DNA of 64,000 nucleotides, from positions 168,416 through 232,415 of the forward strand of contig JBBCGY010000001.1 of the NCBI GenBank assembly GCA_037200005.1, in the 5' to 3' direction. The position numbers and the translations under genes are program-made. Source of the stretch: Alphaproteobacteria bacterium. Lineage in GTDB: Bacteria; Pseudomonadota; Alphaproteobacteria; UBA9219; RFNS01. Positions 59,122-61,479 of the stretch are shown here, in pieces. A model generated the notes under the pieces. The model was given only the letters and a program-made list of their open reading frames with translations. It made no database searches and was not told the DNA's origin. Within the stretch, counting starts at the first letter, position 1; each line of letters starts with the position of its first letter.

Positions 59122-59925
59122 ATGGCAGCCACTAAAAAATCGAGTCCGAGCGCTAAACCCGCTAAAATCAAAGCTCCGGCAAAGAAGCCGGCTAAACCGC
59201 CAGCGAAAACTGCGGCAAAAAGCAGCCCGGCCAAAAGCGCCGTGCCCAAGAGCAATATCGCGGCGCTTAAGCTGGCGCGGCTGCCGCGTCCCAGCCTTGC
59301 CGTGCAGTTTGCCGGGTCGGCCGCCAAATTGCCGCCGCGGCTGCAGGCAATCCTGGACCGGAGCGAAATCGAGCAATTGCTGCATACCCATAGCCGGGCG
59401 CTCGATCGGGGCGAGGAAAATTTGCTGCGCTCGGTCTACCATGCCGACGCGACGCTCGATCTCGGCCCCGGGGTTTTCCAGGGCGCGGTCACCGACTATA
59501 TCCAGTGGGTCGCGGCGGTGATGCAGCAGGTCAAGTCTTCGCATCATTTCACCGGATCGAGCCGGATCGACGTGCGCGGCGACGAAGCCTTCGGCGAAAG
59601 CTATTTCATCGCCCAGAACCGCCTCGACAAGCCGACGGGGCGCGAAGACCTGTTCCTCGCCGGACGCTATCTCGACCGGCTCGAGCGCCGCCCCGCCGGG
59701 GCCGCCGGGGTATGGAAGATTGCCCACCGCAAGCAAGTTCTGGACTGGGTGCGCACCGTGCCGGTCGCCGATATTTTCTACCACCTCAATCCCGATGCCC
59801 TGTGGGGCCTGCGCGGCAAGGCCGACATGTCAAGCCACATGGAGCAGTTTCCCGGCGGCGAGGGCAAGGGCAAGATGCCTTCCTTCGCCGGACGCCGGTA
59901 TGAAAGCAAGAGCATCAAGCTCTAG
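59122..59925 (+). CDS. SnoaL/NTF2-like protein with histone-like N-terminus
   Basis: 267 residues. Residues 1-55 are Lys/Ala/Pro repeats (AKPAKIKAPAKKPAKPPAK), like histone H1 or bacterial AlgP-type tails that bind DNA. From about 75 on it is an NTF2-like (SnoaL) domain: LDRSEIEQLLHTHSRALDRGEENLLRSVYHADATLDLGPG and GSSRIDVRGDEAFGESYFIA. Known members are hydroxylases or dehydratases acting on polycyclic or aromatic substrates; this one's substrate is unknown. The TAG stop is created by the inserted element at 59923-60192; without it the stop would be TAA. Confidence 0.8.
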   Translation: MAATKKSSPSAKPAKIKAPAKKPAKPPAKTAAKSSPAKSAVPKSNIAALKLARLPRPSLAVQFAGSAAKLPPRLQAILDRSEIEQLLHTHSRALDRGEENLLRSVYHADATLDLGPGVFQGAVTDYIQWVAAVMQQVKSSHHFTGSSRIDVRGDEAFGESYFIAQNRLDKPTGREDLFLAGRYLDRLERRPAGAAGVWKIAHRKQVLDWVRTVPVADIFYHLNPDALWGLRGKADMSSHMEQFPGGEGKGKMPSFAGRRYESKSIKL

Positions 59926-60192
59926 GGTCCAGACTCAATTGGAATGGAGGGTTTCGCGCAGGCGAAAAAGCCGAACCGGCTACGAAAAGACCGAAGCAGG
60001 TAACGGTGTCTACCTGCAAGGTCTTTGAGAACGCCGGGCGGCTTTTGCGCCGCGCCCCCCGGGTATGCTAAAGAAGGCCGATGTGCGTTGTCAGCTTCGC
60101 TTGCCGTAGATGGACTACGGCTTCGCTCGCTTCCTAGCATCTCGGCCTTCTTTAGCATACGAAACCCCCATTCTAATTGAGTCTGGACCCTA
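59923..60192. mobile_element. 270-bp MITE-like element with TA target duplication
   Basis: Ends are near-identical inverted repeats of about 32 bases. Outer bases GGGTCCAGACTCAATT at the left (59925-59940) are exactly complementary to the right end; after that there is one substitution and one indel. The outer TA on each side (59923-59924, 60191-60192) fits the TA duplication of IS630/Tc1-type transposition. Inside are a perfect 19-base repeat (60063-60081 with 60142-60160), CCGTAG/CTACGG, and GCAGGTA/TACCTGC. No reading frame is supported. It separates the SnoaL gene from dsbB, which would otherwise be 7 bases apart. Confidence 0.75.
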
Positions 60193-60198
60193 ATCCCA

Positions 60199-60825
60199 AT
60201 GACGGACGGCGCAAAGCATATCGTGGAAGAGGGCGGGCGAAAATCCTCATGCCCCGTCTCGTCGGCTCTCCTTAATCTGACCTGTTGCCGTTTGACCTGG
60301 CGCTGCGGACTGTTCGCCGCGGCGGCAATCGCCTGTTTCGCGCTCGGCTTCGCCCTTATCTCGGAATATGCCTTCGGCTATGCGCCCTGCGTGCTCTGCT
60401 TGTGGCAGCGCGCGCCTTACGCGCTGGTCGCGATCATCGCCGCGGCGGGGATTTTTCTTCCCGGCCTGCGGCGCTGGCGCGGCGTTGTCATTCTGGCCAG
60501 CGCCCTGCTTCTGGCCGTCGATGCGGGTCTGGCGGTTTTTCATGTCGGGGTGGAGCAGCATTGGTGGCTCGGCACGTCCGGCTGCGGCATCCATGACGCC
60601 GCCGAAGGCGATACGCGCTCGATACGCGAGAGCTTGCTGGCGCTGCCGGTGGCGCGGTGCGACGAGATCGCCTGGACGTTCCTCGGTTTCTCGATGGCGG
60701 CCTGGAACGCGGTTTATGCCACATTTGCCACGCTGCTCATGACCTATATCCTCCTGTTCGGCAGTCCAGAAAATGTCCAAACGCAAGACGTCAAAAAGTC
60801 CGGGGAAAACCGCGAACGCGCGTAA
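60199..60825 (+). CDS. dsbB: Disulfide bond formation protein DsbB
   Basis: 208 residues. Inner-membrane quinone reductase that reoxidises DsbA. Four membrane helices (about 37-57, 72-92, 95-115 and 160-190). Cys64 and Cys67 are in YAPCVLCLWQRAPY, and Cys129 with Cys154 form the second, periplasmic pair. The 30-residue N-terminus with extra Cys (SSCPVSS, LTCCRLTWRC) is longer than in E. coli. The start codon is 6 bases from the MITE-like element and has no clear ribosome site, so its expression may depend on the insertion or on a later start. Confidence 0.9.
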   Translation: MTDGAKHIVEEGGRKSSCPVSSALLNLTCCRLTWRCGLFAAAAIACFALGFALISEYAFGYAPCVLCLWQRAPYALVAIIAAAGIFLPGLRRWRGVVILASALLLAVDAGLAVFHVGVEQHWWLGTSGCGIHDAAEGDTRSIRESLLALPVARCDEIAWTFLGFSMAAWNAVYATFATLLMTYILLFGSPENVQTQDVKKSGENRERA

Positions 60826-61345
60826 AGCCATCCCCGGCCATAAAAAGCTGGAGCGGATCTTGCGCGTCGATCACGCGGGCGAGTTCGGCGCGCAGCGCAT
60901 CTATGCCGGACAGCTTTCCATATTGGGAAAAAGCGCCATAGGCGACGAGCTTCGCCATATGGCGGCGCAGGAAGACGAGCATCTGCGCGCATTTTCGGCA
61001 CTGCTCAACGAGCGGAAGATCAGGCCCACGGCGCTGCATCCTTTGTGGCATGTCGCGGGATTCGCGCTCGGCGCGGGAACCGCCCTGCTCGGCGAAAAAG
61101 CGGCGATGGGCTGCACCGTCGCGGTCGAAGAAGTCATCGACGAGCATTACCGGCAGCAGCTTGCGGCGCTCGGCCCCGGCGAGGCGAAGCTAAAGGCGCT
61201 GATCGAGAAATTCCGCCGCGAGGAAAACGAGCATAAGGACGCTGCCGCCGCGCACGGCGCGGAAACGCTGCCCTATTACCCGGTGCTGCGCGCCTTCATC
61301 CGCGCCGGGTCGAAAGCGGCGATCTGGCTGTCGGAAAGGTTGTAG
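60773..61345 (+). CDS. coq7: Demethoxyubiquinone hydroxylase Coq7
   Basis: 190 residues. Di-iron monooxygenase that performs a late ring hydroxylation in ubiquinone synthesis. The iron-ligand pattern is clear: Glu in RVDHAGEFGAQRIYAGQ, E-x-x-H in QEDEHLRAFS, Glu in VAVEEVIDEHY and E-x-x-H in EENEHKD. The N-terminal 25 residues are basic (MSKRKTSKSPGK). The start overlaps dsbB by 53 bases in another frame, so the two are likely co-transcribed. Confidence 0.93.
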   Translation: MSKRKTSKSPGKTANARKAIPGHKKLERILRVDHAGEFGAQRIYAGQLSILGKSAIGDELRHMAAQEDEHLRAFSALLNERKIRPTALHPLWHVAGFALGAGTALLGEKAAMGCTVAVEEVIDEHYRQQLAALGPGEAKLKALIEKFRREENEHKDAAAAHGAETLPYYPVLRAFIRAGSKAAIWLSERL

Positions 61346-61410
61346 AGCAAATCCCGTTTAGGTGGAACACCCGCTCTTCGCAGTGATCCACCTAAACGGG
61401 TGAATTTGCT
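61343..61410. repeat. Palindromic repeat, family TAGAGCA, copy 1
   Basis: AGCAAATCCCGTTTAGGTGGA (61346-61366, one continuous arm split here as AGCAAAT plus CCCGTTTAGGTGGA) pairs with TCCACCTAAACGGGTGAATTTGCT-type right arm at 61387-61410, apart from a 3-base insertion. It begins at the coq7 stop codon. It is related to copy 2 by the opening TAGAGCA and the following TCCCGT. Confidence 0.6.
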
Positions 61411-61423
61411 CGACAAACAAAAG

Positions 61424-61479
61424 CTAGAGCATGTCCCGTCTTTATAATTTCGATTCTACCTTTCCGGGACATGCTCTAG
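61424..61479. repeat. Palindromic repeat, family TAGAGCA, copy 2
   Basis: Perfect 15-base arms CTAGAGCATGTCCCG (61424-61438) and CGGGACATGCTCTAG (61465-61479) with a 26-base AT-rich spacer. Similar AGAGCATGTCCC words are common dispersed repeats in alphaproteobacteria. Placed after coq7 and before the small genes at 61579 and 61800. Confidence 0.65.

Follow-up and report, generated by a model that had tools for sequence, protein, structure and literature searches.

Introduction

MITEs are usually viewed as what remains of the two ends of a dead transposon, the sequence between them being of no importance, and an autonomous partner in the same genome is usual without being strictly required. 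One described system close to the element reported here is IS711, a member of the IS5 family. In Brucella, IS711 is reported to generate a TA duplication within a YTAR target (PMC2266754). We describe here an element that has ends and a target like those of such a system, carries no transposase and has a folded interior conserved across the Alphaproteobacteria. No description of this element family was found in the open literature (most subscription journals lay outside the coverage of the search), and the family is apparently undescribed so far. New relative to known MITEs are the conservation of the fold throughout the class and the decoupling of the ends from the core.

Results

The window is the whole stretch of DNA that was analyzed, 64,000 nt in length. 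Within it, a non-coding element of 270 nt occupies positions 59923 to 60192 of the plus strand and reads G...C between duplicated TA dinucleotides; a covariance model of the family scored this copy at 260 bits over model positions 1 to 270 of 270. The terminal arms are inverted repeats of 31 nt (59923-59953 and 60162-60192) with 90% complementarity, and a second, nested inverted pair of 24 nt is present inside the element (60063-60086 and 60137-60160). The folding energy was -171.8 kcal/mol, compared with a mean of -93.6 for shuffled sequences (z, -14.8; 0 of 200 shuffles as low). The inverted ends, flanking TA and nested palindromes described in a first-pass annotation of this DNA were thereby confirmed. 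The terminal repeats are contained in a closing helix, P1 (5' strand, 59923-59955; 3' strand, 60161-60192), and two hairpin arms, P2 (59956-60055) and P3 (60063-60160), were assigned on the same strand from the consensus structure and its conservation.

The left TA of the target duplication (59923-59924) forms, with position 59925, the TAG stop codon of a gene encoding a SnoaL_4 domain (SnoaL; 59122-59925, plus strand; Pfam PF13577, 93 bits). The right TA (60191-60192) was assigned from the sequence and from the YTAR rule derived from 19 copies, and with A60193 it would restore an original TAA stop. The earlier claim that the insertion had turned TAA into TAG while preserving termination was borne out by the sequence and by the open reading frame at 59122-59925. 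The dsbB gene (60199-60825, plus strand; Pfam PF02600, 103 bits) starts 6 bases past the right edge. Removal of the element and one TA in silico yielded CTC-TAA-TCCCA-ATG, which corrects the gap between SnoaL and dsbB from the 7 bases given previously to 5 bases. A scan of positions 59700 to 60400 detected no terminator-like site and no plus-strand promoter-like site, and hence the proposals that the element broke an operon and now supplies the dsbB upstream region are unproven; neither a local role of the fold nor an influence on dsbB has support. Two other repeats were observed nearby. A short palindrome at 61343-61413 starts exactly on the coq7 stop codon (TAGAGCAAATCCCG...) and ends in TTTGCTCGA; this gene cluster therefore has another stop codon that coincides with an element-like edge. 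At 61425-61478, a perfect 15-nt inverted repeat (TAGAGCATGTCCCG...CGGGACATGCTCTA) lies within a CTAG site, and its TAGAGC end is similar to those of four full-size copies (L202, L203, L208 and L210).

Three additional full copies, with 80 to 83% identity to the window element, were detected in the genome from which the window derives (G000), as had been anticipated, and many more were present in relatives. According to names assigned by reading translations, without a domain search, copies L008 and L007 both begin precisely on a stop codon, that of a mannose-1-phosphate guanylyltransferase-like ORF for L008 and that of an opposite-strand, CheX-like ORF for L007, and copy L009 is upstream of an amidase-like ORF. 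A search with the covariance model, which was built from 13 copies (A2, R1), identified 9 carriers among 33 genomes of the order and gave a total of 42 loci when own-genome and contig-cut copies were included. Comparison of these 42 sites revealed no two with flanking genes in common on both sides and only four one-sided similarities, indicating that the insertions were independent. The size of 270 nt, the non-coding sequence, the 31-nt ends, the four copies in one genome and the 42 dispersed sites in the order are those of a MITE, and the proposal of a MITE-like dispersed element with a TA duplication was supported. At L003 (~1734-1758), an ATG within the inverted end (ATGAGTCCTGACCCTA) could be the start of a glycosyltransferase-like ORF that lies downstream of the copy, and the element may supply a start codon to this ORF. 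A 71-nt inverted repeat with 76% complementarity was also observed in genome G006 (L141:1733-1902) and was unmatched by the covariance model.

Among 289 sampled genomes of the class, 29 loci were detected outside the order, in 12 genomes from 12 different families; no copies were present in the plasmid and viral collections searched. The distribution across the Alphaproteobacteria is patchy. Full copies outside the order were mostly 263 to 274 nt, with a best E-value of 3e-42. As these E-values are rough, the calibration having used random sequence and not hairpins, homology was checked separately. The 26 unpaired positions conserved in the order were kept at a level of 76% in these copies (519/684; chance, ~25%), above the 58% seen for paired positions conserved in the order, and every one of the 101 pairs of the consensus structure occurred as at least two Watson-Crick types among them. 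Shorter copies of 163 to 179 nt that lack P2 were also found (L102 and L123 to L126).

The site at SnoaL and dsbB was then compared with those of relatives. The two genes are adjacent without the element in five genomes (G003 and G006, in both of which they overlap, and G005, G028 and G002), which indicates that the insertion in the window is derived. A second example was found in G010, where a copy lies between rpmF and plsX (named from reading translations) and two congeners have the same spacer with no element. Relatives without the insertion, for which the first-pass annotation had suggested a search, were thus found, with the qualification that the spacers in relatives have drifted and the exact ancestral target is not preserved there. 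A TA duplication in a YTAR context, together with empty sites at SnoaL-dsbB and rpmF-plsX, is in keeping with a MITE.

Among 19 copies with TA at both edges, the reconstructed empty site was YTAR in 16 (background, 17.6%) and CTAG in 7 of the 19 (background, 1.8%); outside the order, CTAG was found in 9 of 16. TAG was also read at the left edge of copies with a reconstructed empty site of YTAA, which indicates a duplication of TA and not of four bases. Because a G directly follows the duplicated TA, a stop codon of either type, TAA or TAG, is always TAG after insertion, whichever way the element is oriented, and such insertions are consequently tolerated in compact operons. The TAG of the element was in register with an upstream open frame of at least 100 codons at 15 of ~74 ends (for two of them, once the called edge had been moved by one base), compared with 3 and 6 for the other frames. 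Under a rough gene model, 7 of 18 non-disrupting insertions were at stop codons, compared with 12.5% of the YTAR sites in non-coding DNA (P = 0.004); this enrichment partly follows from the YTAR target itself. For approximately 14 ends, a long open frame had its ATG no more than 6 bases away, and these probably reflect YTAR-like sites beside gene starts.

An RNAalifold consensus comprised 101 pairs in the form of a three-way junction, with the closing helix P1 formed by the inverted ends and the two arms (P2 and P3) separated by a small hairpin. Pairing in the consensus structure was seen in 95.6% of cells. Changes on both sides were observed for 70 of the 101 pairs, and cells with double changes numbered 241, compared with 68 after shuffling and no more than 50 when the structure was slid. 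P2 contains an internal loop of tandem GA/GA at element positions 62-63 and 105-106, together with a CGNAG/CAAG loop, and P3 contains conserved unpaired bases at GT (168-169), C202 and CCT (211-213). The tandem GA/GA loop was kept in 25 to 27 of 29 copies outside the order, and the pair beside it, 61-107, was predominantly pyrimidine-purine within the order and predominantly G-C beyond it. Key unpaired bases of the fold thus persist class-wide. No Rfam family matched at gathering score, either in the window element or in the other copy-bearing loci scanned. The Rfam family malK-III aligned with one arm of L206 at 30.9 bits, below its gathering score of 50, and in no other copy scanned, and was rejected.

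If each copy acted as an RNA, G-U mismatches would be expected far above A-C mismatches. In the sequence alignment, the ratio of GT to AC stem mismatches was 29:23; in a structure-fitted alignment of 42 copies, which leans toward G-U, it was 110:64; and in copies outside the order it was 78:58. Copies that end a gene were sense to that gene in 7 cases and antisense in 8. These near-even mismatches and balanced orientations indicated no visible maintenance of the inserted copies as strand-specific RNAs, and the suggestion of a stable RNA acting between SnoaL and dsbB is not favored. A candidate role as a sense-strand RNA was not supported by the same mismatch and orientation data.

The ends of the element were compared with those of insertion sequences. 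The common end in the order, GGGTCTGGACTCATAAATA, matches four identical ends in genome G027 at 17 of 19 bases, each with TA before it and, after it, a transposase C-terminus in reverse complement. The G027 end beside the transposase C-terminus, TAGGGTTTGGACTCATAAATC, is 94% identical over 17 nt to the end of copy L007, and this piece of G027 matches IS5-family elements on alphaproteobacterial plasmids. Genome G003, which belongs to the same family as G000, has an IS5-like element of 847 bp that encodes a DUF4096 transposase; the ends of this insertion sequence (TAGGCTCAGGACCTATTAAT) are 94% like those of copy L121 in G016. The match to IS5-family ends was therefore found via L007 and L121 (94% over 17 nt); the window copy's own ends are 59% identical to the G027 element over 17 nt. 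Searches of G000 for PF13586, for relatives of the G003 transposase and for elements with matching ends were all negative, so the source of the copies in this genome is absent or lost. Lone ends in the same genome (L131 to L134) were considered as candidates and enclosed no recognizable insertion sequence and no further copy.

The ends and core of the element are decoupled. The ends of L008 (G000) and L205 (G128) are 94% identical with cores at 43%, and those of L097 (G010) and L221 (G042) are 88% identical, again with cores at 43%. The converse was seen for L202 and L215, both in G215, with 94% identity of the cores and 71% of the ends. Over all pairs, end identity and core identity were moderately correlated (r = 0.55). 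In G011, the element's end TAGTGCCCTGCGTCACCTAAAAAG (L136:810-977 and L137) also bounds a shorter hairpin, and several lone ends were present. This shorter hairpin was not recognized by the covariance model as a three-way junction, which indicates that the ends are common to different interiors. We infer that ends have been replaced or reshaped to suit the resident transposase while the core was retained.

Discussion

The element is probably a MITE-like, non-autonomous element that is moved in trans by an IS5-family transposase, with a conserved fold that it probably needs for its own propagation. The ~20-nt ends resemble those of IS5-family (IS711-like) insertion sequences, and an IS5-family transposase acting in trans would cut the element out and paste it into the TA of a YTAR site, the target here having been the CTAA at the SnoaL stop codon. 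Between interchangeable ends, the three-way junction of P1, P2 and P3 and its conserved unpaired bases would be retained. The fold would serve propagation of the element, as extruded or single-stranded DNA or as RNA, rather than the adjoining genes. Counting against this explanation are the negative searches of G000 for an IS5-type transposase and for an insertion sequence with matching ends, the low identity (59%) between the window copy's ends and the G027 element, and the depth of conservation of the fold, which exceeds that predicted by a plain MITE model. A stronger version, which we advance tentatively, is that the fold is the selected part, persisting class-wide while ends are replaced or reshaped for different IS5-type transposases, and that it acts as single-stranded DNA or RNA in transposition or in evasion of host control.

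Compensatory changes could also arise without selection, through arm-to-arm correction during replication; such correction alone would not preserve the unpaired bases class-wide. Binding motifs conserved in double-stranded DNA could preserve them, although the conserved bases lie opposite one another within internal loops. The lack of a strand signal at individual sites may be compatible with selection acting on the fold in those few copies that move.

The compensatory changes also bear on a mechanism like that of REPINs, in which a Y1 (RAYT/HUH) transposase would move a single-stranded hairpin by recognizing its structure and not the sequence of its ends. Such changes are reported in REPIN hairpins too (PMC3116915), and the element's ends vary freely if paired while unpaired bases are conserved. 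This mechanism is nevertheless unlikely, as TA at both edges and a YTAR target fit a DDE transposase with TA duplication and the ends match those of the IS5 family. Somewhat more doubtful still is a regulatory or trans-acting structured RNA that is carried to new sites and selected for an effect on host genes or as a small RNA. The large covarying fold with conserved internal loops and the z score of -14.8 would suit such an RNA; the 7 sense and 8 antisense copies, the mismatch ratios of 29:23 and 78:58, the lack of insertion sites in common and the lack of an Rfam match at gathering score argue against it. One or a few copies may nonetheless have a trans-acting RNA role.

The original proposal, a MITE of the IS630/Tc1 type, would fit the TA duplication, and IS630 also prefers CTAG. 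A precedent exists in the pneumococcal RUP, a TA-targeting MITE of IS630-Spn1 (PMC2229807). An end-sequence search of 33 genomes detected no IS630 element with matching ends; no insertion sequence of any kind with such ends was detected in the element's own genome, and those detected in relatives belonged to the IS5 family with a YTAR target. On these end sequences, an IS630/Tc1 origin is very unlikely. Mobilization by an IS5-type transposase, with a fold directed to the element's own propagation, remains the preferred explanation. In this element the interior fold is the part kept across the class, pair by pair through compensation, and the ends appear to follow the available transposase; whether the passenger of a DNA transposon needs a folded strand to move becomes testable. 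The geometry of TA plus G furthermore provides a simple rule for colonizing stop codons in compact operons with the gene unharmed.

Among known systems, IS711 and the Bru-RS palindromes of Brucella, from the same bacterial class, share with the element the TA duplication in YTAR and an association of palindromic repeats with the insertion sequence (PMC2266754), but IS711 is autonomous and 842 bp in length. IS5-family insertion sequences with DUF4096/DDE_Tnp_1 transposases (G027, G003 and plasmid LR723678) have TAGGGT-type or TAGGCT-type terminal repeats and flanking TA, as does the element, but carry a transposase, of which the element has none. The RUP is likewise small and non-coding, with a TA target and ends matching a transposase-bearing element (PMC2229807); it differs in its size of 107 bp and in its transposase family, and is not known to have a class-wide three-arm fold. 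REPINs are similarly non-autonomous and hairpin forming, with compensatory stem changes (PMC3116915), but their REP ends have a conserved sequence and are linked to RAYTs, whereas the ends of the element vary between lineages and carry TA. The Correia/NEMIS elements, likened here by description and not by sequence, are also dispersed MITEs, shorter at 107 and 155 bp, and their RNA stem-loops have been proposed as RNase III substrates (PMC2229807).
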